A stretch of 64,000 nt of DNA from Phycobacter azelaicus. Its GTDB lineage: Bacteria > Pseudomonadota > Alphaproteobacteria > Rhodobacterales > Rhodobacteraceae. Below the pieces are notes generated by a model that was not told where the DNA came from, searched no databases, and worked only from the letters and a program-made list of their open reading frames with translations. The DNA is taken from NCBI RefSeq assembly GCF_014884385.1, contig NZ_WKFH01000003.1, positions 1,348,001 through 1,412,000 of the forward strand, written 5' to 3'. The first letter of the stretch is position 1. Every line of letters begins with the position of its first letter. The position numbers were made by a program, and so were the translations under genes. Positions 4,385 through 46,568 of this stretch are shown one piece after another.

Positions 4385-5275
4385 ATGTGCGGCATCGTTG
4401 GCCTGTTTCTGAAGAACGATGAGATGCGCCCAAGGCTGGGCGATATGCTCACCGATATGCTGATCACCATGACAGACCGCGGCCCCGATAGCGCCGGGAT
4501 CGCGATTTATGGTGACGAAGACGAAGGTTGCCTCAAGATCACGATACAATCGGACACCCCGGACGAGGCCTTTTCAGGTCTCAAAGAAAATCTGACCACG
4601 GCTGCAGGACTACCTGTGGGCGTCAAGGTGCTCGACACCCACGCTGTCCTGACGCTGCCCAGCGATTCAGAGGCAGAGGTGATGTCTGCCTTGGCCGATA
4701 AAGGTCTGCGCATCATGGGGATTGGCTCTTCGATGGAGATCTTCAAGGAGGTCGGCCTGCCGCGCGACGTCGCCGCGCGGTTTGACCTGCGCAACATGGG
4801 AGGCAGCCATGGCATCGGTCACACGCGCATGGCGACGGAATCCGCCGTCACCACCATGGGCGCGCACCCGTTTTCCACCGCGCCCGATCAATGCCTTGTG
4901 CACAACGGTTCGCTGTCCAACCACAACCAGATGCGCCGAAAGCTGGCGCGCAAGGGTGTTGTGACCCAGTCGGAGAACGACACCGAGGTCGGCGCGGCCT
5001 ATATCTCGTCCCGGATCGCTGAGGGCGCCACCCTGGGTGAGGCGCTTGAGGACACAATAAACGATCTCGACGGGTTCTTCACTTTTGTGACAGGCACCAA
5101 AAACGGCTTTGGCGTCGTCCGTGACCCGATTGCCTGCAAACCCGCCGTCATGGCCGAGACCGAAGACTATGTCGCCTTTGCCAGCGAATACCGCGCCTTT
5201 GCGGATCTTCCAAATATCGAGGCTGCCACGGTCTGGGAGCCTGAACCCGCAACCGTCTACTTCTGGGAGCGCTGA
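4385..5275 (+). CDS. mgsA: Class II glutamine amidotransferase, N-methylglutamate synthase subunit A-like (MgsA/GlxB)
   Basis: 296-residue Ntn-type glutaminase domain resembling the first domain of glutamate synthase. The N-terminus MCGIVGLF exposes Cys2 as the nucleophile after Met removal, and GHTRMAT and HNGSLSNH motifs match the class II fold. In the N-methylglutamate pathway MgsA works with MgsB and MgsC to move the glutamine- or gamma-glutamylmethylamide-derived amine onto 2-oxoglutarate; the rhizobial homologue is GlxB. The gene leads a three-gene row (gaps of 3 and 10 bp) before a type III glutamine synthetase. Whether the substrate is glutamine or gamma-glutamylmethylamide cannot be read from sequence. 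Confidence 0.85.
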   Translation: MCGIVGLFLKNDEMRPRLGDMLTDMLITMTDRGPDSAGIAIYGDEDEGCLKITIQSDTPDEAFSGLKENLTTAAGLPVGVKVLDTHAVLTLPSDSEAEVMSALADKGLRIMGIGSSMEIFKEVGLPRDVAARFDLRNMGGSHGIGHTRMATESAVTTMGAHPFSTAPDQCLVHNGSLSNHNQMRRKLARKGVVTQSENDTEVGAAYISSRIAEGATLGEALEDTINDLDGFFTFVTGTKNGFGVVRDPIACKPAVMAETEDYVAFASEYRAFADLPNIEAATVWEPEPATVYFWER

Positions 5276-5278
5276 AAG

Positions 5279-5965
5279 ATGACAACAACGCTCGATATGA
5301 CCACAACAGATCTGCGAGAGGTCAACACGACCCTGCAGGCCGCCGCCAAATCGCAAGCCAATGAGGCCTATGTCGTCATTAATCCGCGCGGTAGCCATGC
5401 CATGGCCTGCGGCCTTGATGGCCCGCTGAACGTCACCATCAAAGGCTCTACCGGCTACTACTGCGCGGGCATGAACAAGGAGGCGTCGGTCACTGTTGAA
5501 GGGTCTGCCGGGCCGGGCGTGGCCGAGAACATGATGTCAGGTGTTGTCACCATCGAAGGGGACGCCAGCCAGTACGCAGGCGCCACGGGCCATGGCGGGC
5601 TTTTGAACATCAAGGGTAACGCCAGTTCACGCTGCGGGATCTCGATGAAGGGTATCGACATCGTCGTGCATGGCAATATCGGCCATATGTCTGCCTTCAT
5701 GGCGCAAAAGGGCAACCTGGTTGTGCTGGGGGACGCGGGCGATGCGCTTGGCGATAGCCTTTACGAGGCGCGGCTTTTTGTGCGGGGCAGCGTGAAATCC
5801 CTCGGCGCCGACTGCATCGAGAAACAGATGCGCCTTGAGCATATCGAACTGCTGAAAGAGCTGCTGGAAAAGGCGGGCGCGGATGCCAAGCCGGAGGAGT
5901 TCAAGCGCTATGGCTCGGCACGGCAGCTCTACCACTTCAACATCGACAACGTAGACGCCTACTGA
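5279..5965 (+). CDS. mgsB: GXGXG-motif protein, glutamate synthase domain 3-like (MgsB/GlxC)
   Basis: 228 residues built around the right-handed beta-helix of the glutamate synthase C-terminal domain. Repeated Gly-rich turns are visible (VTIKGSTGYYCAGM, VTIEGDASQYAGATGHGG, IKGNASSRCGISMKG, VVLGDAGDALGDSLY). This domain is structural and helps form the ammonia or methylamine channel. It starts 3 bp after mgsA and belongs to the same operon. The length agrees with GlxC/MgsB. The split of GltB into three polypeptides (amidotransferase, FMN domain, GXGXG) is the hallmark of N-methylglutamate synthase-type complexes. Confidence 0.85.
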   Translation: MTTTLDMTTTDLREVNTTLQAAAKSQANEAYVVINPRGSHAMACGLDGPLNVTIKGSTGYYCAGMNKEASVTVEGSAGPGVAENMMSGVVTIEGDASQYAGATGHGGLLNIKGNASSRCGISMKGIDIVVHGNIGHMSAFMAQKGNLVVLGDAGDALGDSLYEARLFVRGSVKSLGADCIEKQMRLEHIELLKELLEKAGADAKPEEFKRYGSARQLYHFNIDNVDAY

Positions 5966-5975
5966 GGAGCGCGAC

Positions 5976-7298
5976 ATGGACGAGACACCACAGACCGAAC
6001 CGCGCCAAAGTTGGACTTTTTCCAACGAGATCAACGCTGAGATCCGTCGGGCGGCCGCGACAGGTATCTAAGATTCGCGGCGGCGGCGCCAAACGTAGGG
6101 TGCCGCATTTCGATGACCTTCTGTTCCTGGGCGCGTCGGTTAGCCGCTATCCGCTCGAAGGGTATCGCGAGAAGTGCGAAACTGCGGTGACGCTTGGAAC
6201 CCGCTTTGCCAAGAAGCCGATTGAATTGAAAATCCCAGTTACCATCGCGGGCATGTCCTTTGGCGCACTCTCCGGCAACGCCAAAGAGGCGCTGGGACGG
6301 GGCGCCACCATGGCGGGCACCTCGACCACCACCGGGGATGGCGGTATGACCGAAGAAGAGCGCGGCCATTCCGAAAAGCTGGTCTATCAATATCTGCCCA
6401 GCCGTTACGGCATGAACCCCGACGATCTGCGCCGTGCTGACGCGATTGAAGTCGTTGTGGGACAGGGCGCCAAGCCTGGCGGCGGCGGCATGCTTTTGGG
6501 CCAGAAAATCACTGAACGCGTTGCCGGAATGCGCGACTTGCCGGAAGGGATTGACCAGCGTTCGGCCTGTCGCCACCCGGATTGGACCGGGCCGGATGAT
6601 CTTGAGATCAAGATCCTAGAGCTGCGGGAGATCACCAATTGGGAAAAGCCGATCTACGTCAAGATCGGCGGCGCCCGCCCCTATTATGACACGGCCCTTG
6701 CGGTCAAGGCGGGCGCGGATGTTGTTGTACTCGATGGGATGCAGGGCGGCACGGCCGCCACGCAGGATGTCTTCATCGAACATGTGGGCCAGCCGACGCT
6801 GGCCTGTATCCGCCCGGCTGTGCAGGCGCTGCAGGATCTTGGGCTTCACCGTGAGGTGCAGTTGGTCGTCTCTGGCGGGATCCGCACTGGCGCGGATGTG
6901 GCCAAGGCGCTGGCGCTTGGCGCCGATGCAGTGGCGATTGGCACGGCAGCGCTGGTGGCGATCGGTGACAATGATCCGAAGTGGGAAGCAGAATATCAGA
7001 AGCTTGGCACCACAACGGGCGCTTATGACGACTGGCATGAAGGGCGCGACCCTGCCGGGATCACCACGCAGGACCCAGAACTGATGGCGCGTCTTGACCC
7101 CGAGGCCGCCGGTCGGCGTCTGCGCAACTATCTGAATGTGCTGACGCTTGAATGTCAGACGCTGGCGCGGGCCTGTGGTCATAACCACATTCACAATCTC
7201 GAACCAGAAGACCTATGCGCCCTCACCATGGAGGCCGCCGCCATGGCCAGGTGCCCCTCGCGGGGACCAACTGGTACCCGGGTAAGCCCGGCTTTTAA
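5976..7298 (+). pseudogene. mgsC: FMN-binding glutamate synthase-like subunit (MgsC/GlxD), two frameshifts
   Basis: FMN-domain subunit that would reduce the imino intermediate to N-methylglutamate or glutamate. Translation from the ATG at 5976 (SD GAGGAG) gives MDETPQTEPRQSW...RRAAATGI and then TAA at 6069-6071. The downstream frame resumes as IRGGGAKRRVPHFDDLLFLG, which fits loss of 2 bases near 6070. A second shift near 7252 (AGGTG where AGGGTG would give MARVPLAGTNWYPGKPGF and a stop at 7296-7298) replaces the C-terminus and lets the present frame run to 7368, into glnT. The core 6100-7251 is open and well conserved (GMSFGALSGNAKEAL, DGMQGGTAATQ, SGGIRTGADVAKALALGADAV). This is either a real pseudogene or sequence error; a shortened protein from GTG 6100 is possible. 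Confidence 0.8.
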
Positions 7299-7309
7299 GC
7301 CGGATCGAC

Positions 7310-7330
7310 AGAGGGGCCAGCGGCCCCTCT
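7310..7330 (+). promoter_or_regulatory. GC-rich hairpin between mgsC and glnT
   Basis: A perfect 9-bp stem (AGAGGGGCC / GGCCCCTCT) with a 3-base loop, 34 bp before the glnT start and 12 bp after the ancestral mgsC stop. No U-run follows, so it is more likely an mRNA processing or stability element, or a partial attenuator, than a strong terminator. Confidence 0.6.
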
Positions 7331-7364
7331 CTCAATATCTGGACAAGCAACAGGGAACAAAACG

Positions 7365-8681
7365 ATGAGCAAACTTGCCAAATTCGCCGCAGACAAGGGC
7401 GTCAAATATTTCATGATCTCCTATACCGATCTGTTCGGTGGCCAGCGCGCCAAACTGGTGCCCGCCGCAGCCATTGCGGATATGGAGGAAGAAGGCGCAG
7501 GCTTTGCCGGTTTTGCGACCTGGTTTGACATGTCACCCGCGCACCCGGATATGCTCGCCGTTCCGGACCCGGATGCGGTTATCCAGCTGCCCTGGAAGCC
7601 CGAGGTCGCCTGGGTACCCGCAGACTGTGTGATGGAGGGCACCCCGGTTGAACAGGCCCCGCGCAACGTATTGAAAAAGCTGATCAAAGAGGCGACAGAT
7701 GCCGGGCTGCGCGTCAAGACCGGCATCGAAGCCGAGTTCTTTCTGCTGTCACCTGAGGGCGACAAGATCTCGGACCCATATGATACCGCGGAAAAGCCCT
7801 GCTACGATCAGCAGGCGGTCATGCGGCGCTATGATGTGATCGCAGAGATCTGCGATTACATGCTCGAGCTTGGCTGGGGCCCCTATCAGAACGACCACGA
7901 AGACGCCAATGGCCAGTTCGAGATGAACTGGGAGTTTGACGATGCGCTGGTGACGGCGGACCGGCACTCCTTTTTTAAATTCATGGTGAAATCGGTCGCC
8001 GAAAAGCACGGGCTCAGGGCGACCTTCATGCCCAAACCTGTCGAAGGACTGACCGGCAACGGCTGCCACGCACATATCTCGGTCTGGGATCTGGACGGCA
8101 AGACCAACGCCTTTGCCGGAGATGCGGGCGGTCAGATCGGTGAGGTCGGCCTGTCAGAGCAGGGCGGTTACTTTCTTGGCGGAATCATGTCTCATGCCGA
8201 AGCGTTGGCGGCAATCACCAACCCAACGGTCAACAGCTACAAGCGGATCAATGCGCCCAGCACCATGTCCGGTGCTACCTGGGCGCCCAATACGGTAACT
8301 TGGACCGGCAACAACCGCACTCATATGGTCCGCGTTCCCGGTCCCGGCCGTTTCGAGCTGCGCCTGCCCGACGGGGCGGTGAACCCCTATCTGCTGCAGG
8401 CTGTTATCATCGCGGCTGGCCTGTCCGGCATCCGGGCCAAAGCCGATCCGGGCAAGCGCTATGACATTGACATGTATGCCGAGGGGCATCTCATCACCGA
8501 TGCGCCGAAGCTGCCGCTCAATATGCTCGACGCGATCCGCAACTTCGATGCGGATGAGGCACTGAAAAAAATGATGGGTACCGGCTTTTCCGCGTCCTAC
8601 GTCAAGATGAAGCAGCAGGAATGGAACAGCTTCGTCTCACACTTTTCGCGCTGGGAAAAAGACAACACGCTGGACATCTAA
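7365..8681 (+). CDS. glnT: Type III glutamine synthetase-like ligase (GlnT / gamma-glutamylmethylamide synthetase GmaS family)
   Basis: 438-residue cytoplasmic ATP-dependent ligase of the glutamine synthetase fold. Visible motifs are GIEAEFFL, the metal-site EDANGQFEMNWE, GNGCHAHISVWD (His of the glutamate/metal site), NSYKRINAP and RFELRLPDGAVNPYL. Members of this type III group make glutamine or, as GmaS, couple glutamate and methylamine to gamma-glutamylmethylamide. Being next to the mgsABC-like genes favours the GmaS role, but sequence alone does not separate GlnT from GmaS. The ATG has a modest SD (CAGGGAACAAAACG). The present out-of-frame mgsC tail overlaps the start by 4 bp; the ancestral mgsC would have stopped 66 bp before. 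Confidence 0.88.
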   Translation: MSKLAKFAADKGVKYFMISYTDLFGGQRAKLVPAAAIADMEEEGAGFAGFATWFDMSPAHPDMLAVPDPDAVIQLPWKPEVAWVPADCVMEGTPVEQAPRNVLKKLIKEATDAGLRVKTGIEAEFFLLSPEGDKISDPYDTAEKPCYDQQAVMRRYDVIAEICDYMLELGWGPYQNDHEDANGQFEMNWEFDDALVTADRHSFFKFMVKSVAEKHGLRATFMPKPVEGLTGNGCHAHISVWDLDGKTNAFAGDAGGQIGEVGLSEQGGYFLGGIMSHAEALAAITNPTVNSYKRINAPSTMSGATWAPNTVTWTGNNRTHMVRVPGPGRFELRLPDGAVNPYLLQAVIIAAGLSGIRAKADPGKRYDIDMYAEGHLITDAPKLPLNMLDAIRNFDADEALKKMMGTGFSASYVKMKQQEWNSFVSHFSRWEKDNTLDI

Positions 8682-8753: not shown

Positions 8754-9137
8754 TTATGTCTGCTCTTCAATCACCTTGCGCGCTGCGCGGAAACACTCAA
8801 GTGCTTGCGGCACGCCGCAATAGATGCCGATGACATGAATGATGGCGCGGATTTCATCCTGTGTGACACCGTTGTTGATTGCGCCGCGGCAATGCAGCTC
8901 CCATTCATGCATCTTGCCCAAAGCACCAATCATCGAGAGGTTCATCATCGAGCGGGTCTTGGCGTCAATCACGTCATCACCCCAGCCAAAGCCCCAGCAC
9001 CAGGCGGTCATGGCTTCTTGAAAGGGGCGCGTAAAGTCGTCGGCGGCGGCAAGGTTACGCTCCACATATTCGGCGCCAAGGGTGGCTTTTCGCTGCTCGA
9101 GGCCCTTGAGGAAAAGATCTTCGTCAAAACTGCTCAT
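8754..9137 (-). CDS. Carboxymuconolactone decarboxylase family protein
   Basis: 127-residue all-helical AhpD-like protein close in length to PcaC (4-carboxymuconolactone decarboxylase). It has the pattern of the family (LGAEYVERNLAAADDFTRPFQE, TRSMMNLSMIGALGKMHEWELHCRGAINNGVTQDEIRAIIHVIGIYCGVPQALECFRAA). There is no CxxC redox pair, so a decarboxylase or structural role is more likely than peroxidase activity. The GAGG ribosome site supports the ATG at 9137. It is 97 bp downstream of the GntR gene on the same strand and convergent with glnT. It may take part in the pathway encoded by the divergent operon, but no substrate can be assigned. Confidence 0.8.
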   Translation of the reverse strand: MSSFDEDLFLKGLEQRKATLGAEYVERNLAAADDFTRPFQEAMTAWCWGFGWGDDVIDAKTRSMMNLSMIGALGKMHEWELHCRGAINNGVTQDEIRAIIHVIGIYCGVPQALECFRAARKVIEEQT

Positions 9138-9234: not shown

Positions 9235-9921
9235 TCAAGGGGTAACTTTCTCTTCGGCGAGCATTTTTGCTGCGACCGCTTTTGCATCCGTCAGGTGGCG
9301 CTCAACAGCCGCCCGCGCCGCTACTGGATCACGACTGATGATGGCATCGCAGATCTTGTGCATGTGCACGGGGCCAAGGGCCTCGCGATCAGAGCTGGCC
9401 AGCGTCATGATGCGAAGCCGGGAAATCCGACCATTCAAGCGCTGCACCACTTCCCATGCGATGGTATGTCCCGCACCCGCAAAGATGATGCTGTAGAATT
9501 TGGTGGTGGCCTTGAACAGGGCGCCTGGCGTCTGATCTTTGGCAGCGCCTTGCAGGTCTCGCAGGGCGGTCGCGAGTTGGCGTTGCTGATCCGCTGTCAT
9601 ATTGATGGCGCAGTCCGCCGCCGCCGCCGTTTCGAGCTGAAGCCGGATGTCATAGATCTGCCGGGCGTCGTCCCAGGTCAGGTGGGAGACGCGCGGACCC
9701 ACGTTCGCCTGATGCTCGACCAGTCCCTCGGCATCCAGATAGCGCAGTGTTTCGCGCACCACCGTGCGGCTCACCCCAAGCTGTTCACATAAAACACGCT
9801 CCACCAGCCGTTCACCGGGCTTGAAGGTTCCATCGATGATCGCATCGCGAAGACGCTCCAGCACCACATCGCGCAGCGTTGTCGGCTGAAGGTCGATCTT
9901 TTGAAGGCCCTGATTCTGCAT
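9235..9921 (-). CDS. GntR-family transcriptional regulator with FCD ligand domain
   Basis: 228-residue regulator. The N-terminal winged helix (about residues 15-80; LRDAIIDGTFKPGERLVERVLCEQLGVSRTVVRETLRYLDAEGLV) is followed by an all-helical FCD domain (about 85-215), where metal-binding Asp and His residues normally hold an organic acid effector. It is divergent from the DUF1185-hydrolase-monooxygenase operon across a 103-bp gap, the classic position of a local regulator. A GT-N3-AC half-palindrome at 9971-9981 fits the binding site of this subfamily. The effector is presumably a pathway substrate or intermediate. Confidence 0.9.
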   Translation of the reverse strand: MQNQGLQKIDLQPTTLRDVVLERLRDAIIDGTFKPGERLVERVLCEQLGVSRTVVRETLRYLDAEGLVEHQANVGPRVSHLTWDDARQIYDIRLQLETAAAADCAINMTADQQRQLATALRDLQGAAKDQTPGALFKATTKFYSIIFAGAGHTIAWEVVQRLNGRISRLRIMTLASSDREALGPVHMHKICDAIISRDPVAARAAVERHLTDAKAVAAKMLAEEKVTP

Positions 9922-9970
9922 GCTCGGACGCTACCAGCCGTCAGGTTGCACGACAAGCTTGATTGTAGGA

Positions 9971-9981
9971 TTGTATTACGG
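9971..9981. promoter_or_regulatory. Candidate GntR/FCD operator
   Basis: TTGTATTACGG contains the GT-NNN-AC core recognised by many FadR/FCD-type GntR proteins. It lies in the short gap between the regulator gene and the divergent catabolic operon. Assigned from motif and position only. Confidence 0.4.
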
Positions 9982-10024
9982 TACGCCATATTCAAGTCAT
10001 ATACGAAGCTGATAGGAAACTGAT

Positions 10025-10627
10025 ATGCCAGCCAAGATCCGCAAGACGCTGTTGCATGTGGAAGAAACGCATATCGAGGGCGGTAAAGAGGCCGCTGTTC
10101 CGCTCAAGATGATCGCTGCCGTGGCGGTGATCGCCAATCCCTGGGCGGGGCGGGGGTTCGTCGAAGACCTGGCCCCCGAGATCGCCGATTGCGCGCCGGG
10201 CCTTGGGAAAATGTTGACCGGCATGATCCTTGATGCCGCAGGCGGCGGCGACAAGGTGGAAGGTTATGGAAAATCTGCCATCGTGGGCGTCAACGGCGAG
10301 GTAGAGCACGCCTCGGCGCTGATTCACACCCTACGCTTTGGCAACCATTACCGCGAAGCCGTCGGGGCCAAGTCCTATCTGGCCTTTTGCAACACACGTG
10401 GCCCCGCCAATGCGCCGCTGATGATCCCGCTGATGGACAAGAATGATGGGGGCCGCCGCAGCCACTATCTGACCATCCAGCTGTCTGTTGCGGATGCGCC
10501 TGCTGCGGACGAGATCGTCATCGCCCTTGGTGCTTCGATCGGCGGGCGCCCGCATCACCGCATCGGCGACCGCTATCAGGATCTCAAGGAACTTGGCCAT
10601 GATGTTGACAACCCTGCCGCCGTCTGA
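10025..10627 (+). CDS. DUF1185 / amino acid synthesis family protein
   Basis: 200-residue soluble protein of the AA_synth (DUF1185) family, whose biochemical function is not established. Recognisable features are IRKTLLHVEETHIEGG, the Gly/Asp-rich GGDKVEGYGKSAIVGVNGEVEHASALIHTLRFGN and a C-terminal GASIGGRPHHRIGDRYQDLKEL. The ATG at 10025 follows AGGAAACTGAT. It is the first gene of a five-gene operon, and its 3' end overlaps the hydrolase gene by 29 bp. Its position in a ring-opening monooxygenase operon suggests an enzymatic step on a small carboxylated intermediate. Confidence 0.85.
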   Translation: MPAKIRKTLLHVEETHIEGGKEAAVPLKMIAAVAVIANPWAGRGFVEDLAPEIADCAPGLGKMLTGMILDAAGGGDKVEGYGKSAIVGVNGEVEHASALIHTLRFGNHYREAVGAKSYLAFCNTRGPANAPLMIPLMDKNDGGRRSHYLTIQLSVADAPAADEIVIALGASIGGRPHHRIGDRYQDLKELGHDVDNPAAV

Positions 10628-11438
10628 GCAGTCCGGACCCATAGGCTACCGCGCGGCAGGCACGGGCGCACCTCTGGTTCTGCTGCATGGTGTGGGTATG
10701 CAATCCGCAGCCTGGGCGCCACAACTTGCGGCTCTTTCATCCTCACATCGCGTGATTGCACTGGATTTGCCGGGACATGGCATCAGTTCGCCTCTGCCCG
10801 CAAGTTCTGAGTTGCCGGATTTTGTGGTCTGGGCTGCCGAGGCGATAGGAGCGCTTGGGTTTGATCGGGTCAGCCTTGCGGGACATTCGATGGGTGCGCT
10901 TGTTGCGGCTGGCCTTTCGGTGAGCCGACCGGATCTTGTCGAACGGGTCGCACTGCTGAATGGGGTTTTCCGCCGGGATGCTGCTGCCCGCGATGCGGTA
11001 AAAGCCCGTGCGGCGCAGATCGGTACAGGCACCTTCGATGTTGAAACGCCTCTTGATCGATGGTTCGGAGCAGGATCCGAAAGTTGTGGTATCCGTGCCA
11101 GCGTTGCAGCATGGCTGAGAGCCGTGGATCTGGGCGGTTATGCTACGGCCTATTCCGCCTTTGCGTGTGGCGATGACTGCTATGCCGATGGCTTTGGCAG
11201 AATCCGATGCCCTTTGCTGGCGCTGACCGGCGATCTCGATCTGAACTCCACTCCCGCCATGTCTCATGCAATGGCTGCAGCCGCCCCGATGGGGCAGGCT
11301 GTGATTGTCGAAGGACACGGCCATATGGTGAACCTGACCGCGCCCGAAAAGGTCAACGCCGCGCTCGCAGATTGGCTTGAGACCTGCTCCAAACTTGAGA
11401 CCTGCTCCAAAAGGGAGAACGTTGCATGTCAGCCATAG
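10599..11438 (+). CDS. Alpha/beta hydrolase (TgnD- or 3-oxoadipate enol-lactonase-like)
   Basis: 279-residue alpha/beta hydrolase. The oxyanion motif LLHGVGM is near residue 28, the nucleophile Ser sits in GHSMGA near 95, the acid is in TGDLD and the catalytic His is in EGHGHMVN near the C-terminus. The start at 10599 (SD AAGGA) lies inside the DUF1185 gene; the longer reading frame upstream is an overlap artefact. The last codons contain an exact 18-bp tandem duplication giving LETCSKLETCSK. In trigonelline degradation a hydrolase of this superfamily cleaves the ring-opened N-methylformamido intermediate, and that role would fit here. Lactonase is the alternative. Confidence 0.82.
   Translation: MMLTTLPPSEQSGPIGYRAAGTGAPLVLLHGVGMQSAAWAPQLAALSSSHRVIALDLPGHGISSPLPASSELPDFVVWAAEAIGALGFDRVSLAGHSMGALVAAGLSVSRPDLVERVALLNGVFRRDAAARDAVKARAAQIGTGTFDVETPLDRWFGAGSESCGIRASVAAWLRAVDLGGYATAYSAFACGDDCYADGFGRIRCPLLALTGDLDLNSTPAMSHAMAAAAPMGQAVIVEGHGHMVNLTAPEKVNAALADWLETCSKLETCSKRENVACQP
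11376..11411 (+). repeat. 18-bp perfect tandem duplication in the hydrolase 3' end
   Basis: Two adjacent identical copies of CTTGAGACCTGCTCCAAA at 11376-11393 and 11394-11411. They encode LETCSK twice, in frame, just before the AAGGGAG ribosome binding site of the flavin reductase gene. This looks like a recent slippage event. Confidence 0.95.
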
Positions 11439-12346
11439 ATCCGCAGGCCCTGCGCCGCGCCTTTGGGGCCTTCATGACCGGGGTGACGGTTGTCACCAGC
11501 CGCGACAAGGACGGTCAGCCCTTGGGCTTTACCGCCAATTCCTTCACCTCCGTTTCGCTTGACCCACCGCTGGTGCTGGTTTGTCTTGCCAATACCTCGA
11601 CCAACTGGAGGGCGTTCACCGAAGGTTCGGGTTTTGCAGTCAACGTTCTGTCAGAGTCGCAAAAAGACATCTCCAACATCTTTGCACGCCCTTCTGACAA
11701 CCGCTTTGAGCATGTTGCGTGGCACAAAGGGCCGCACGGCGCGCCGGTGCTGGAGGGGGTCTCTGCCTGGTTCGATTGTTCCATGCACAAGGTCGTGCCT
11801 GCCGGGGATCACGCCATCATGATTGGTGAGGTCCGCGCTTTTGACACGGGTCCGGCGCCGGGTCTGGGATATGTGCGGGGAGCCTATGTCACCCCGGCGA
11901 CCGAGGCAAAGGCTCTGGACCGTCGCACCGGCATCATGGTCTCGGCCCTGATCAAGCAAGGCAACTCGGTTCTGTTGGTCGATCACCGCGACGGCAGTCT
12001 CACCCTGCCCGAAGCACAGGTCGGGGACGATGGTGTCACCGCCACGCTGAACCGATTGCTGGAGCGCACCGGGCTGACGACCGAGGCCGGGTTCATCTAC
12101 GCGGTCTACGAGGATACCCACCGTGGATGCCAGCACATCACCTTCTTGTGTGAAGCCGAGGAAGGAATGCCGCGCACCGGCGCCTTTGTGCCACCGACCA
12201 ATTCGAGCCTGATGGATCTTGCCGACCCGGCCATGGTTGCGATGCTGGCGCGTTTTGCCGAAGAAATGCAGCTCGGAAGTTTTGGTGTCTATTGCGGAAA
12301 CGAACGCAGCGGGCAGGTGCGTGAAATCAATATGGGGGCGCTGTGA
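11426..12346 (+). CDS. Flavin reductase domain protein with Nudix-like C-terminal extension
   Basis: 306 residues. The first about 165 match the flavin reductase (DIM6/HpaC) split barrel (LRRAFGAFMTGVTVVTSRDKDGQPLGFTANSFTSVSLDPPLVLVCLA), which supplies FMNH2 from NAD(P)H. Residues about 180-300 (ALIKQGNSVLLVDHRDGSLTLPEAQVGDDGVTATLNRLLERTGL) resemble a Nudix fold, but a full catalytic REx2EExGU box is not visible, so it may be a sensory or regulatory domain. The gene overlaps the hydrolase by 13 bp and is one base from the LLM monooxygenase gene, making them an evident two-component monooxygenase pair. Confidence 0.85.
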   Translation: MSAIDPQALRRAFGAFMTGVTVVTSRDKDGQPLGFTANSFTSVSLDPPLVLVCLANTSTNWRAFTEGSGFAVNVLSESQKDISNIFARPSDNRFEHVAWHKGPHGAPVLEGVSAWFDCSMHKVVPAGDHAIMIGEVRAFDTGPAPGLGYVRGAYVTPATEAKALDRRTGIMVSALIKQGNSVLLVDHRDGSLTLPEAQVGDDGVTATLNRLLERTGLTTEAGFIYAVYEDTHRGCQHITFLCEAEEGMPRTGAFVPPTNSSLMDLADPAMVAMLARFAEEMQLGSFGVYCGNERSGQVREINMGAL

Positions 12347-12347
12347 C

Positions 12348-13385
12348 ATGAAATTTTCGCTGTTCGCGCATATGGAGCGGATCTCGGAGAGCCAGGATCA
12401 AAGGCAGCTCTACAAGGAGTTCGTTGAACTCTGCCAGATCGCCGATAAGGGCGGCATGCACGCGGTTTGGACCGGCGAACATCATGGCATGAATTTCACC
12501 ATCGCGCCGAACCCGTTCTTGAACCTGGTTGATCTGGCCCGTCAGACCAAGAACGTGCGCCTTGGCACCGGAACGGTGATTGCGCCCTTCTGGCACCCGA
12601 TCCGGCTTGCTGGTGAAGCCGCCATGGTGGATATTATGACTGATGGGCGGCTTGAGTTGGGCATCGCGCGCGGTGCCTACAGTTTTGAATACGAGCGCCT
12701 GCGCCCTGGTATGGACGCCTGGGAAGCCGGTCAGCGCATGCGAGAGCTGGTCCCTGCCGTGAAAGGGCTGTGGAAGGGCGACCACGTGCTGGAGGGGGAG
12801 TTCAACTCCTACCCGGCAACCACTTCGGCGCCGTTGCCACTGCAACAGGACGGTCCGCCCATCTGGGTCGCGGCTCGCGATCCGAACAGCCATGAATTTG
12901 CCATTGCCAACGATTGCAACGTTCAGGTCACGCCATTGTGGAAGGGCGATGATGAGGTGCGCCATCTGGCGGACACTTTTGACGCCGCCTGTGCCAAACT
13001 CCCAAACAAGCCAAGGCCCAAGCTGATGCTGTTGATGCACACCTATGTGGCGGAGGGAGAAAGCGACGCGCAGCAGGCCGCCGAAGAGTTGAACCGGTTC
13101 TACAATTATTTCGGAGCCTGGTTCATGAACAAGCGCGAGATCAGGCAAGGTCTGATCAAGGAGCTGACGGACGAAGAAATCGCGGCGCACCCGTTTTATT
13201 CCCCGGAGGCCATGTCCCGCGATCTCGTCATCGGTGCCCCGCAAGCGGTGATCGACCGTATCAAATCCTACGAGGCGATGGGCTATGATGAATATGCCTT
13301 CTGGATCGACTCCGGCATGAGCTTTGAGCGCAAGAAAGCCTCGCTTGAACGCTTCATTTCGGATGTGATGCCAGCATTTGCATGA
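12348..13385 (+). CDS. LLM-class flavin-dependent monooxygenase (TgnA-like candidate)
   Basis: 345-residue TIM-barrel oxygenase of the bacterial luciferase-like family (MKFSLFAHMER, AVWTGEHHGMNFTIAPNPFLNLVDLARQTKNVRLGTGTVIAPFWHPIRLAGEAAMVDIMTDGRLELGIARGAY). It lacks its own reductase and would use FMNH2 from the preceding gene. The start at 12348 follows the reductase stop by one base. Relatives in this context (TgnA for trigonelline, PyrA for pyridine) open N-heterocyclic rings. The substrate is inferred from neighbours, not from active-site residues. Confidence 0.87.
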   Translation: MKFSLFAHMERISESQDQRQLYKEFVELCQIADKGGMHAVWTGEHHGMNFTIAPNPFLNLVDLARQTKNVRLGTGTVIAPFWHPIRLAGEAAMVDIMTDGRLELGIARGAYSFEYERLRPGMDAWEAGQRMRELVPAVKGLWKGDHVLEGEFNSYPATTSAPLPLQQDGPPIWVAARDPNSHEFAIANDCNVQVTPLWKGDDEVRHLADTFDAACAKLPNKPRPKLMLLMHTYVAEGESDAQQAAEELNRFYNYFGAWFMNKREIRQGLIKELTDEEIAAHPFYSPEAMSRDLVIGAPQAVIDRIKSYEAMGYDEYAFWIDSGMSFERKKASLERFISDVMPAFA

Positions 13386-14857
13386 GGGATGCCATGGACC
13401 GCTTTCAGCACTATATCGACGGCGCATTCGAAGATGGGAGTGCGGGTTTCGAGAGCCTTGATCCGGCCACGGGCCAGCCTTGGGCAGTCATGCCGGAGGC
13501 CAGCGCGTCAGACGTGGACCGCGCCGTTCGCGCAGCGGACCGGGCCTTTTGTGCGCCAGACTGGGCGGGCTTGACGGCAACCCAGCGCGGCAAGCTTCTT
13601 TATCGGCTCGCAGATCTGGTGCAGGAGGCGGCGCCGCGCCTTGCTGCGCTGGAAACCCGGGACACGGGCAAGATCATTCGTGAAACCTCGGCCCAGATCG
13701 CCTATGTCGCCGACTACTATCGCTACTATGCTGGTCTTGCGGACAAGATTGAAGGCGCGCACCTGCCCATCGACAAGCCCGACATGGAGGTCTGGCTGCG
13801 ACGGGAACCTGTCGGCGTGGTGGCCGCCATCGTACCCTGGAACAGCCAGCTGTTCCTGTCCGCCGTCAAGCTGGGCCCCGCGCTGGCAGCCGGTTGCACC
13901 GTGGTCCTGAAGGCAAGCGAGGATGGCCCTGCTCCGCTTCTTGAATTCGCGCGGCTCGTGGATCAGGCGGGCTTTGCCCCTGGTGTTGTCAACATCCTCA
14001 CCGGCGGCCCCGAGGCGGGCAAAACCCTGACGGCGCATCCCCTGGTGGCGCATGTGGCTTTTACCGGCGGGCCGGAAACAGCACGACATATCGTGCGCGC
14101 CAGCGCAGACAATCTCGCCAAAACCTCGCTCGAACTCGGGGGGAAATCTCCCTTTATCGTCTTTGAGGATGCCGACATTGATAGCGCGGTGAATGCGCAG
14201 GTCGCAGGGATTTTTGCGGCTACCGGTCAAAGCTGTGTTGCCGGTTCGCGTCTTCTGGTTCATCGCTCTGTCCGCGACGCATTCATTGCTCAGCTCAAAG
14301 CCAAGGCCAAAGCCGTGCGTATCGGCGCACCGGATGACATGGAAACCGAGGTCGGACCGCTGTGCTCGTTGCGTCAACGTCAGCGCATCGAAGGCGTCAT
14401 TGCGCAGTCGCTCGATGCGGGTGCCAAATTGGTGACAGGTGGACAAGCGCCCAATTCAGAAGGGTTCTTCTTTCCGCCAACAATCCTTGATTGCAGTGAC
14501 GCGCCAGCTGCGCCCTGCATCACCGAAGAGCTGTTTGGCCCGGTCTTGTCGGTTCTGGCGTTTGACACCGAAGATGAGGCAATCGCCCTGGCGAATGCGA
14601 CGCCCTATGGGCTTGCCTCAGGTGTTTTTACTCGCGACCTTGCGCGAGCGCATCGGATGATCCGCGCCATCCGGGCCGGGATCGTATGGATCAACACGTA
14701 CCGCGCCGTCTCTCCCATTGCTCCATTCGGAGGACACGGTCTGTCGGGCCATGGGCGCGAAGGCGGCCTTGCGGCGGCCCTCGACTACACGACGTTGAAA
14801 GCTGTGTGGCTTCGCACCTCGGATGATCCGATCCCGGATCCCTTTGTCATGCGATAA
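13382..14857 (+). CDS. NAD(P)-dependent aldehyde dehydrogenase (TgnC/semialdehyde dehydrogenase-like)
   Basis: 491-residue ALDH. It shows PWNSQLFLSAVKLGPALAAGCTVVLKASE (cofactor site), FTGG, LELGGKSPFIVFEDAD (general base Glu) and GQSCVAGSR (catalytic Cys near residue 288). It overlaps the monooxygenase by ATGA at 13382; a second ATG at 13394 has a better-spaced GAGGG and may be the true start. Last gene of the operon. It would oxidise the aldehyde produced by ring opening, or succinate semialdehyde. The FGGHGLSGHGREGG tail is normal for the family. Confidence 0.87.
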   Translation: MRDAMDRFQHYIDGAFEDGSAGFESLDPATGQPWAVMPEASASDVDRAVRAADRAFCAPDWAGLTATQRGKLLYRLADLVQEAAPRLAALETRDTGKIIRETSAQIAYVADYYRYYAGLADKIEGAHLPIDKPDMEVWLRREPVGVVAAIVPWNSQLFLSAVKLGPALAAGCTVVLKASEDGPAPLLEFARLVDQAGFAPGVVNILTGGPEAGKTLTAHPLVAHVAFTGGPETARHIVRASADNLAKTSLELGGKSPFIVFEDADIDSAVNAQVAGIFAATGQSCVAGSRLLVHRSVRDAFIAQLKAKAKAVRIGAPDDMETEVGPLCSLRQRQRIEGVIAQSLDAGAKLVTGGQAPNSEGFFFPPTILDCSDAPAAPCITEELFGPVLSVLAFDTEDEAIALANATPYGLASGVFTRDLARAHRMIRAIRAGIVWINTYRAVSPIAPFGGHGLSGHGREGGLAAALDYTTLKAVWLRTSDDPIPDPFVMR

Positions 14858-14954: not shown

Positions 14955-16394
14955 TTAGTCGGTGGACCAGCCGCCAACGGCTTTCACTTCGAGGAAGTCC
15001 TCGATCCCGAAGATACCACCTTCGCGGCCGTTGCCCGACTGTTTCATGCCGCCAAAGGGAGATCCCGCAGAGCGGGACTGGCCGTTCATCTCCACCATGC
15101 CCGAGCGCAGTACGCGGGCCATGCGGTTGGCCTTTTCACCGTCCTGTGTCTGTACGTAGTTGGTCAGACCATAGGGCGTGTCATTGGCGATCTCGACAGC
15201 TTCTTCTTCGGTCTCGAAGGGGATGATCGACAGGACCGGGCCAAAGATCTCTTCGCGGGCGATGGTCATCTGGTTGTTCACATCGGCAAAGACGGTGGGT
15301 TTGACATAGAAGCCCTTGTTGAAGCCTTCGGGGCGACCGGTGCCACCGGCAACAAGGCGGGCGCCTTCGTCGATGCCTTTCTGGATCAGGTCCTGAATCT
15401 TGTTCCACTGAGTTTCATTCACAACTGGGCCGATGTGGCGGCCTTCTTCCGACGCCGGGCCGACGGTGACCTTGGAGGCAACCTCGGCGGCGGTGGCGAC
15501 GGCCTGATCGTAGATGCCTTTTTGTACTAGCATACGCGAGGGTGCGTTACAGCTTTGCCCGGTGTTGTTCATCATGTGAAGAACGCCGCGCTTGACGGCC
15601 TTTTCGTCTGCATCGTCAAAGATCACATTGGCGCCTTTGCCGCCCAGCTCCAGATGGACCTTCTTCAGGGTATCGGCCGCCGCCTTGGAGATCGCGGTGC
15701 CTGCGCGGGTCGAGCCGGTGAAGGACACCATGTCGACATTCGGGTGCGCCGACAGCTGCGAGCCGACGCCGACACCATCGCCATTCACGAGGTTGAAGAC
15801 ACCGGCGGGGAAGCCTGCCTCGTCCATCATCTCGGCAAAGATCATCGCATCAAGCGGGCTTTCCTCGGAGGGCTTCAGAACCATGCTGCAGCCCGCGATG
15901 GCCGCCGCGCCCACCTTCAGAGTGATCTGGTTCATCGGCCAGTTCCAAGGCGTGATCAGGGCAGCAACGCCAACGGCTTCGTAGATGATGCGATCGTTCT
16001 GGAAGCGATCGCTCAGGGGGCGCTCGAATTCAAAGGCCTTGGCGGCGCGCACGAAGTTCTTGAGATGGTAGATACCGGCGCCGACCTGTTGCGTGCGAGA
16101 CATTTCGATCGGGGCGCCCATTTCGGTGGACATGGCCTGCGCCAGATCCTCACCTCGGGTCTGGTAGACTTCAATCAGCTTTTCCACCAGCGCGATCCGC
16201 TCTTCCACCGGAGTTGCCATCCAGCCGGGCAGCGCGGCCTTGGCGGCTGCAACGGCGGCATTGGTGTCCGCCTCGCTGCCGAGGGAAATCACCGCGCAGG
16301 GCTCTTCGGTGGAAGGATCGATGACCAGGTGGTCCTTTGCAGCCGAAGGGGCAACCCATTGGCCGTTGATGTAAAAGTCGCGTTTCTCGATCAT
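14955..16394 (-). CDS. Aldehyde dehydrogenase family protein
   Basis: 479-residue cytoplasmic NAD(P)-dependent ALDH. Typical motifs are TPWNWPMNQITLKVGAAAIAGCSMVLKPSE, FTGSTRAG, LELGGKGANVIFDDAD with the general-base Glu, and NTGQSCNAPSRML with the nucleophile Cys. The ATG at 16394 has GGGAG upstream; a TTG 15 bases earlier is rejected. It stands alone, divergent from a peroxiredoxin gene across 287 bp, with a strong terminator behind it. The substrate is unknown; it is a different subfamily from the ALDH of the neighbouring operon, so it need not belong to the same pathway. Confidence 0.88.
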   Translation of the reverse strand: MIEKRDFYINGQWVAPSAAKDHLVIDPSTEEPCAVISLGSEADTNAAVAAAKAALPGWMATPVEERIALVEKLIEVYQTRGEDLAQAMSTEMGAPIEMSRTQQVGAGIYHLKNFVRAAKAFEFERPLSDRFQNDRIIYEAVGVAALITPWNWPMNQITLKVGAAAIAGCSMVLKPSEESPLDAMIFAEMMDEAGFPAGVFNLVNGDGVGVGSQLSAHPNVDMVSFTGSTRAGTAISKAAADTLKKVHLELGGKGANVIFDDADEKAVKRGVLHMMNNTGQSCNAPSRMLVQKGIYDQAVATAAEVASKVTVGPASEEGRHIGPVVNETQWNKIQDLIQKGIDEGARLVAGGTGRPEGFNKGFYVKPTVFADVNNQMTIAREEIFGPVLSIIPFETEEEAVEIANDTPYGLTNYVQTQDGEKANRMARVLRSGMVEMNGQSRSAGSPFGGMKQSGNGREGGIFGIEDFLEVKAVGGWSTD

Positions 16395-16496
16395 GTCCGG
16401 ATCTCCCAAAAATCAGACGTTTCGCCGGATCCTTGCCGACGTATTCGCCCGCCACTGTGTCACCGCATTGACCCATGGGCAAGACCAGAGGTGAAA

Positions 16497-45362: not shown

Positions 45363-46568
45363 ATGCTGCTGGATGCGCTTCTCTTGCAACTTGGCTACAA
45401 CGCCACGCTGGTCTCGATCGGGGCGGCCCTGCTTGGCGGTGCTGCGGGAATTTCCGGGACTTTCCTGTTCCTGCGCAAGCGGGCTCTGGTCAGCGATGCC
45501 GTAAGCCATGCCACCCTTCCCGGTGTCGGAATTGCCTTTCTGGTGATGGTATTCCTTGGCGGCGACGGGCGCAATCTGGCGGGGCTTTTGATTGGTTCGG
45601 CCTTGTCGGCGGGCGTGGGTCTGTTGTGCATGAACTGGCTGACCCGCAACACCCGTCTGGCCGAGGATGCGGCCATCGGGGCAGTGCTGTCGGTGTTCTT
45701 CGGCTTTGGGATCGTCCTGCTCACCGTAATTCAGACCCTGGGTGTTGGACGGCAGGCGGGGCTTGAAGGCTTCCTTTTGGGTTCCACCGCCGGGATGCTG
45801 CTGAGCGATGCGCTGATCATCGCGGGCGGCAGTGCGATGGCGCTCTTAGTGATCCTCCTGATGCGCCGCCCGATGATGCTGGTGGCCTTTGATCCCGAAT
45901 ATGCCGCCGCGCGCGACCTGCCGGTGCATCGCATTGATATGTTGATGATGGGACTGGTGATGGCCGTGACAGTTGTCGGGCTGAAAATTGTCGGTCTGAT
46001 CTTGATCGTCGCCCTTTTGATCATCCCCGCCGTCACCGCCCGCTTCTGGACCGAGCGGTCAGACCGCGTGGTCGTCATTGCTGGTGTCTCCGGTGCCGCT
46101 TCGGCCTACGTGGGCGCGGCGATCTCGGCCTCGGCGCCGAACCTGCCCACCGGGCCGATCATCGTGCTTGTGTCCTTTGTCCTCTTTGTTCTGTCGCTGC
46201 TCTTCGCCCCAAACCGAGGTGTTCTGGCTGCCGTGCTGCGCCACCAGAGGTTTCAGCGCCGGGTGCATCTGCGGCAGGGCTTGCTGGCCTTGGCGCAGCG
46301 GCAGCCGATCTATGAGCCGCTTACCCTGCGCCTGTTGCGCCGTGCCGGACTTGTGCGCGCCGATGGTGTGGCCACCGAAAAAGGGCGCGCCCGCGCTGCC
46401 AAGGCCTTGCGCGATGAAAAACGCTGGGAGCTGGTGCGCAGCGATCTGGCGCATGAGGCCGCCGCCGCCCTTTACGATGGTCTGCGCGAGATTGAGACGG
46501 TGCTGACCCCCGATCAGATCAGCGAAATCGACCGCCGCATCGGCGGCCCGCAGGAGGTTTCCGCGTGA
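45363..46568 (+). CDS. sitC: Manganese ABC transporter permease with DtxR-like C-terminal tail (SitC)
   Basis: 401 residues. The first about 285 form an ABC-3 family permease with eight or so transmembrane helices (FLFLRKRALVSDAVSHATLPGVG is the family motif). The remaining about 115 are soluble: LLRRAGLVRADGVATEKGRARAAKALRDEKRWELVRSDL...LREIETVLTPDQISEIDRRIGG. This resembles the wing and dimerisation part of DtxR/MntR repressors, without an intact set of metal ligands. Permease-DtxR fusions are known (chlamydial YtgC-YtgR). ATG 45363 follows sitB by 10 bp. Confidence 0.9.
   Translation: MLLDALLLQLGYNATLVSIGAALLGGAAGISGTFLFLRKRALVSDAVSHATLPGVGIAFLVMVFLGGDGRNLAGLLIGSALSAGVGLLCMNWLTRNTRLAEDAAIGAVLSVFFGFGIVLLTVIQTLGVGRQAGLEGFLLGSTAGMLLSDALIIAGGSAMALLVILLMRRPMMLVAFDPEYAAARDLPVHRIDMLMMGLVMAVTVVGLKIVGLILIVALLIIPAVTARFWTERSDRVVVIAGVSGAASAYVGAAISASAPNLPTGPIIVLVSFVLFVLSLLFAPNRGVLAAVLRHQRFQRRVHLRQGLLALAQRQPIYEPLTLRLLRRAGLVRADGVATEKGRARAAKALRDEKRWELVRSDLAHEAAAALYDGLREIETVLTPDQISEIDRRIGGPQEVSA

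Follow-up and report, generated by a model that had tools for sequence, protein, structure and literature searches.

We describe here six adjacent genes, at positions 9235..14857 of a 64-kb stretch of the Phycobacter azelaicus genome (the window, by which we mean that whole stretch), that probably constitute an operon for the breakdown of trigonelline, of the type known as tgn in Acinetobacter. Trigonelline and homarine, both betaines that contain nitrogen, occur in algae, plants and marine animals. We infer trigonelline as the substrate because of the orthology of the genes with tgn, the residues kept in the ring-opening oxygenase, a palindrome common to related operons and the link of such operons with a succinate-semialdehyde dehydrogenase (SSADH) gene. 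An earlier note on this DNA had proposed that the genes serve to open the ring of an N-methylpyridinium carboxylate (trigonelline or homarine), and this proposal is supported by orthology, by the gene order of Acinetobacter sp. PK01, by the 73–74% identity of the luciferase-like monooxygenase (LLM) to Acinetobacter proteins and by an operator-like palindrome, of which the window has a diverged copy. If so, a trigonelline-type operon is placed in this genus of Rhodobacteraceae.

Gene content and orthology with Acinetobacter tgn

The elements of the operon are listed below, where percentages are identities to the counterparts in PK01 (NZ_CP094644), in which tgnA is annotated as the reductase, tgnB as the oxygenase and tgnC as the dehydrogenase.

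9235..9921, minus strand: GntR/FCD regulator, divergent from the operon (PF00392 and PF07729; 52% to the GntR protein adjoining PK01 tgn)
9977..9990: candidate operator TACGGTACGCCATA, which precedes the start of DUF1185 by 35 bp and is a diverged form of the palindrome TATGGTATACCATA conserved in relatives (3 mismatches in 14)
10025..10627, plus strand: DUF1185 (now AA_synth), TgnF-like (PF06684; 71%)
10602..11438, plus strand: alpha/beta hydrolase, TgnD-like (Abhydrolase; 55%; GHSMG, GDLD, GHGH)
11426..12346, plus strand: flavin reductase, TgnA ortholog (PF01613, Flavin_Reduct; 48%)
12348..13385, plus strand: LLM flavin-dependent oxygenase, TgnB ortholog (PF00296, Bac_luciferase; 73%)
13382..14857, plus strand: aldehyde dehydrogenase (ALDH), TgnC ortholog (PF00171, Aldedh; 72%)

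In the trigonelline pathway the alpha/beta hydrolase bears the name TgnD. As the earlier note had described, a GntR/FCD regulator is divergent from five tightly packed enzyme genes: inspection of open reading frames (ORFs) together with Pfam profiles finds all six intact, at the coordinates and with the families first assigned to them, and the junctions between enzyme genes are either overlaps or a 1-bp gap. DUF1185 and hydrolase overlap by 26 bp when the hydrolase ATG is taken at 10602 (alternative starts are an ATG at 10599 and, for a longer ORF, a TTG at 10488), hydrolase and reductase by 13 bp, LLM and ALDH by 4 bp, and the 1-bp gap lies between reductase and LLM. The Ser, Asp and His motifs of the hydrolase and the GQSC and ELGGK motifs of the ALDH are present, as would be expected of active enzymes. 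The C-terminal part of the reductase, of about 145 residues (residues 161–306; window 11906–12346), has no Pfam match and is included in a full-length alignment with the solved structure 3rh7, presumably that of a Sinorhizobium-type protein. The 4.0-Mb genome holds no second LLM close to this one, its two further matches having identities of 30% and 26%. The LLM is present in two of the four genomes of the genus.

The comparison with tgn rests on Acinetobacter relatives annotated by NCBI. Gene order in PK01 is identical to that of the window (divergent GntR, DUF1185, alpha/beta hydrolase, reductase, oxygenase, dehydrogenase), and its annotation reverses two names of the earlier note, which had called the LLM oxygenase TgnA and the reductase TgnB. 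That note had also left DUF1185 outside the trigonelline gene set; it belongs there, because TgnF of A. baylyi is, according to PMC7913881, a homolog of a DUF1185-family protein. The same article describes this homolog as stimulating TgnE-dependent succinic semialdehyde oxidation and adds that the article's own protein showed no such effect. When the LLM was compared by tblastn with a plasmid collection, 326 records were obtained, and among the 40 matches listed the identities were 74.8–79.1% for Rhodobacterales, 72.8–73.9% for Acinetobacter and 71.6–74.8% for Burkholderiales and rhizobia. The Acinetobacter clusters P0121–P0123, named trigonelline monooxygenase oxygenase component, are 90–92% identical to the PK01 protein. 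The refuting outcome set out in the earlier note, an LLM that clusters with alkanesulfonate-type enzymes and is distant from TgnA, is not borne out: the score of the LLM against the alkanesulfonate monooxygenase (SsuD) model TIGR03565 is 26.8 bits, for a cut-off of 518.2. The six-gene grouping is not a product of chance, because loci fetched with the LLM alone carry the other genes: in the best 80 of 580 confirmed loci, ALDH is found in all 80, DUF1185 and reductase in 78 each, the regulator in 76 and the hydrolase in 72, the misses being due in part to short loci (9 of 80 below 14.1 kb) and to ORF and coverage cut-offs.

Related LLMs were given clade labels of our own according to their identity to the window LLM, type I (about 69–100%), type I' (about 62–69%) and clade IV (35–41%), and identity alone parts I from I' poorly near 66–69%. 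In a tree of 82 rows, made by a quick method and with one very long outgroup row, the window LLM pairs with that of a genus mate (SH-aLRT 100) and, with less firm support, joins Pararhodobacter and Thioclava; I' forms a clade (100), and Acinetobacter TgnB lies within a 17-row group (92) beside Rhodobacterales. A first tree showed I' arising inside the Rhodobacterales type I clade; approximately unbiased tests on 62 rows (p 0.51 and 0.25) do not decide this, and we do not retain it.

The residues of the window LLM are those of TgnB to a large extent. The TgnB-type reference comprised 13 rows (4 Acinetobacter, 1 Moraxella, 2 Xanthomonas, 3 Burkholderiales loci, 1 Alcaligenes and 2 rhizobial), with a trigonelline name on the Acinetobacter ones only, and 175 of the 184 positions invariant in it are retained in the window LLM. 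At the level of 90% of rows, 165 of these positions are kept in Ib, the subgroup of the window, 155 in Ia, 138 in I' and 74 in IV. All 14 I' rows are altered at H38R, A137L, A185G, C190F, V192I and V294T, among others; residues 190–192 are probably near the flavin, the alignment to luciferase ending at residue 188. An LLM at E <= 1e-55 was present in 102 of 394 Rhodobacteraceae genomes, most genera being represented by a single genome, and in no case did a genome carry two copies of at least 60%. In the genus that contains Ruegeria, 43 of 54 genomes have a match (15 at 72–80%, 26 at 64–66%, 1 at 56% and 1 at only 38%), and copies of 72–80% and of 64–66% never occur together in these 54, for which the chance is 4e-6 if kinship is ignored.

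A palindrome between regulator and DUF1185

The stretch between regulator and DUF1185 was obtained from 85 of the 93 loci tried. ATGGTATACCAT was found in 64 of these 85 stretches, and in five rounds of a shuffling control no gapless 6+6 palindrome was common to more than one stretch. With up to three mismatches, TATGGTATACCATA is present in 82 of the 85 (0 mismatches in 31, 1 in 30, 2 in 11, 3 in 10, 4 in 2 and 6 in 1). The PK01 site is exact, and the window site TACGGTACGCCATA and that of the genus mate, TACGGTACACCATT, have three mismatches each. TACGGTACGCCATA is the top-scoring site of the window, at 12.8 of 25.9 bits with the next at 10.4 (position 45545), being itself one of the 84 sites behind the scoring matrix, and it sits at the same place as in relatives. 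A three-mismatch site means little except for its place, because I' loci, when taken whole, reach similar matches (best match of three mismatches once, four ten times and five three times, n = 14). A pattern derived from the two sites of the genus occurs once in each of the two genomes, a result that is partly circular.

The exact core 12-mer is present in 15 of 18 genomes, with 16 sites (once in 14 genomes, twice in one), all at the operon locus, and is absent from G789, G795 and G797; a reversed control pattern occurs in 1 of the 18. In the genome with two sites (Ruegeria, L145) the second lies 41 bp before an SSADH gene, and in PK01 a second site lies 92 bp before the SSADH gene, which is followed by a gene for a carboxymuconolactone-decarboxylase-family (CMD) protein. 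These are the 2 of 18 SSADH genes, in 96 loci, that have their own site of at least 10 bits; of the other 16, 14 are downstream of tgnC on the operon strand and 2 (L173 and L178) are on the opposite strand. The palindrome was found before 0 of 29 CMD, 0 of 8 cytosine permease, 0 of 2 NIPSNAP and 4 of 62 DUF1330 genes. It may be used as a marker of such operons and sometimes of their SSADH gene. The palindrome appears to be new here: no mention of it was found in the available portions of the trigonelline, homarine and DUF1185 literature, beyond which no search was aimed.

Neighbouring genes

On the regulator side of the operon, the window carries a set of genes that may be concerned with methylamine and, next to the regulator gene, a CMD gene.

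4385..5275, plus strand: MgsA/GlxB-like glutamine amidotransferase (PF13522; 56% to the PK01 relative; true start uncertain, domain from residue 141)
5279..5965, plus strand: MgsB/GlxC-like GXGXG protein (PF01493; 61% to PK01 GlxC)
6100..7368, plus strand: MgsC/GlxD-like FMN glutamate-synthase-type protein (PF01645; 79% to the PK01 relative)
7365..8681, plus strand: gamma-glutamylmethylamide synthetase (GmaS; best PDB match RhGmaS 7cql, 631 bits)
8754..9137, minus strand: CMD protein, possible accessory gene (PF02627; 29 of 100 type I loci, among them PK01, have a relative)

Between the end of the GmaS gene and the regulator gene lie 0.55 kb, and GmaS carries QNDHEDANGQFEMN at 175–188, which is the methylamine site of RhGmaS in the same numbering; Gln175, Asp177, Glu179, Glu186 and Asn188 of RhGmaS, which are methylamine-site and catalytic residues, are all kept. 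According to PMC7948447, 7cql is RhGmaS of Rhodovulum sp. 12E13, with a methylamine site. In the genus mate (G001, locus L086, 10505–16542), gmaS is parted from the CMD gene by a soxA-family cluster, possibly Mgd, and by purU. Only 73 bp separate gmaS (ending at 8681) from CMD (beginning at 8754) in the window, so that these genes were either lost in the window or gained in G001. The window genome has soxA-family proteins elsewhere, 57% and 47% identical to the G001 protein; these, like the G001 cluster, may be Mgd or sarcosine oxidase. Taking the sarcosine-oxidase-like genes of PK01 as Mgd is unjustified, at 34% to the G001 protein, and a general synteny of tgn and gmaS was rejected, at 2 of 100 loci.

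Neighbours were counted in 100 type I and 14 I' loci of 5–24 kb, so that the counts are lower bounds. Type I loci have GntR in 96, DUF1330 in 62, CMD in 29, SSADH in 18 and BCCT in 12 (9 of them also with SSADH), and more rarely a cytosine permease (8), gmaS (2), MgdA-like (2), MgdC-like (1) and MgsC-like (1) genes. I' loci have LysR in all 14, MgdA-like and MgdC-like genes in 4 each, and none of the other neighbour families. Being found in 18 of 100, SSADH is not a constant feature of type I loci, and its linkage was dropped as a separator of I from I', 18/100 against 0/14 being weak. In L104, L110, L116 and L151 the order on one strand is ALDH, a gene of 556–577 residues, SSADH; in L116 the middle gene scores above the cut-off for BCCT and the one after it above that for SSADH. 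In Ensifer canadensis (plasmid pT173b, L053) the orthologous operon adjoins nodL, noeA and noeB and is followed by genes for an ABC transporter and SSADH, a placement in line with trigonelline being a legume betaine. Downstream of the window operon and convergent with it is a second ALDH gene (14955–16409, minus strand), whose product is about 35% identical to SSADH, that of PK01 included, and to TgnC; it was not seen beside the operon in the relatives examined.

Substrate and comparison with known systems

In the trigonelline pathway as we propose it, the GntR/FCD regulator, probably a repressor, would bind the palindrome before the first gene. The reductase TgnA would supply FMNH2 to the LLM oxygenase TgnB, which would open the N-methylpyridinium ring; the ALDH (TgnC) would oxidise the resulting aldehyde or hydroxybutyrolactone, and the hydrolase (TgnD) would release succinate semialdehyde, CO2, formate and methylamine from the N-methylformamido product, with DUF1185 (TgnF) assisting. 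The last step, oxidation of succinate semialdehyde, would fall to an SSADH assumed to be encoded elsewhere in the genome, and methylamine would probably be captured by the neighbouring GmaS and MgsABC-like proteins, in which case gmaS might be co-regulated with the operon.

Several observations weigh against a trigonelline operon. The tgn names of PK01 are automatic annotation; the window palindrome has 3 mismatches in 14, and a match of this quality arises by chance in 1 of 14 I' loci; 14 of the 18 SSADH neighbours are merely downstream, without a palindrome of their own, and neither an SSADH (TgnE) nor a BCCT gene is found beside the window operon. The methylamine link may be fortuitous, since among 100 type I loci gmaS is limited to 2, which both belong to this genus. 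The mutual exclusion of I and I' is likewise compatible with two versions of a single function, with one substrate common to both, and Ruegeria pomeroyi is reported to draw homarine down fast. This last point speaks for an operon for homarine, a reading that we hold to be unlikely, in which the same enzyme types would cleave N-methylpicolinate at C5–C6, after which the aldehyde would be oxidised and the formyl group taken off, giving N-methyl-iminoglutarate, then N-methylglutamate and, via Mgd, glutamate (our own derivation). The homarine operon, homABCDER, is that of Ferrer-Gonzalez et al. 2026, a paper cited in PMC13390433. An operon for homarine is said to consist of five enzymes and a regulator, a number that agrees with the window, and the genus mate has its possible Mgd cluster and purU beside its operon copy, so that its wider locus is linked to soxA/Mgd-family genes. 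Mgd takes part in homarine catabolism according to a 2026 paper; Mgd as a defining feature of a homarine operon is our assumption, and none is found beside the window operon. A published growth result to the contrary, better growth of R. pomeroyi on trigonelline than on homarine (Heal 2021, PMC8269262), has been withdrawn: the 2023 correction (PMC10134881) deletes the sentence and the experiment because of a contaminated standard, so that it cannot be cited against a role in homarine use and was dropped as evidence. Against homarine stand the 73% identity of the LLM to Acinetobacter TgnB, whose invariant residues it retains, the presence of the same operon in soil and plant bacteria, once adjoining nod genes, and the linkage, in 18 of 100 loci, of SSADH, an enzyme that a route to glutamate would not require. 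The sequence data favour the trigonelline arm over the homarine arm.

It is quite unlikely that the operon handles both betaines, and perhaps other N-methylpyridinium carboxylates, with the GmaS/Mgs neighbours serving either product. By our derivation the reaction chemistry is equal for either carboxyl position, and no genome among the 394 or the 54 has both type I and I' copies, as expected if one copy does both; this absence may stem from kinship, and TgnA/TgnB are considered unlikely to act on homarine for steric reasons, in an argument, not a test, made by Heal 2021 (PMC8269262). An operon for an unrelated substrate (a sulfonate, a nitronate or another heterocycle) is very improbable: the LLM fold is common to such enzymes and the protein passes no NCBIfam cut-off (best 25 of 28 families), but its 26.8 bits to the SsuD-type model compare with a cut-off of 518, it is 73–74% identical to Acinetobacter proteins, one of them named tgnB, and the whole operon is orthologous to PK01 tgn.

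A trigonelline operon in the window can also be placed in a wider scheme, which is possible if doubtful: an ancestral trigonelline operon would have split in marine Rhodobacterales into two mutually exclusive forms, that of the window keeping the TgnB residues, GntR and the palindrome and, in this genus, adjoining methylamine capture, and the LysR form I' having changed invariant residues, often lying beside soxA/Mgd-family genes, and having become the homarine operon. The I' operons of L252, L253, L260 and L261 are divergent from soxB/soxD/soxA-family genes, 64–77% identical to those of G001, and are candidates for the homarine operon. Clade IV was set aside in this respect, its neighbours resembling, by eye, a thiamine-diphosphate enzyme and agmatinases, or carnitine genes. 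L085, L214, L217, L218, L222, L225 and L228 have a distant LLM (35–41%), ALDH, DUF1185, hydrolase and then a thiamine-diphosphate-like enzyme, some of them also two agmatinase-like genes; in L216 and L220 a distant LLM set is near carnitine-dehydrogenase-like and beta-keto-acid-cleavage-like genes (all by eye), with a similar pattern in L209, L215, L221 and L224. L220 comes from a 2.1-Mb genome and has 37% G+C in the locus. Were the scheme true, the I/I' pair would be a natural experiment in substrate change of a ring opener; the separation of TgnB-like LLMs from their sister clade, one member of which (P0338) likewise has the database name trigonelline monooxygenase, opens the way to a direct test of the betaine that each marine operon uses.

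Compared with known systems, the window GmaS aligns with RhGmaS (7CQL) from end to end, and the methylamine-site motif is preserved in it, no function-relevant difference having been found. The type I' operon of marine Rhodobacterales has the same five enzymes in the same order, with an LLM 62–69% identical to that of the window, but LysR replaces GntR in 14 of 14, palindrome and SSADH are lacking, soxA/Mgd-family genes adjoin in 4 of 14, and C190F and V192I are present in all 14 rows. The closest system is the tgn operon of Acinetobacter (Perchat et al. 2018; compared here through NZ_CP094644 and citing passages), with which all six genes, their order and the divergent GntR are common. The palindrome is exact in PK01 and diverged in the window; PK01 tgn has cytosine-permease, porin-like and SSADH genes nearby, which the window operon lacks beside it; and the GmaS and MgsABC-like set, which adjoins the window operon, is at a distance of 20 kb in PK01, on whose plasmid genes of the glxBCD/glnT and dimethylamine types lie no more than 30 kb from tgn.

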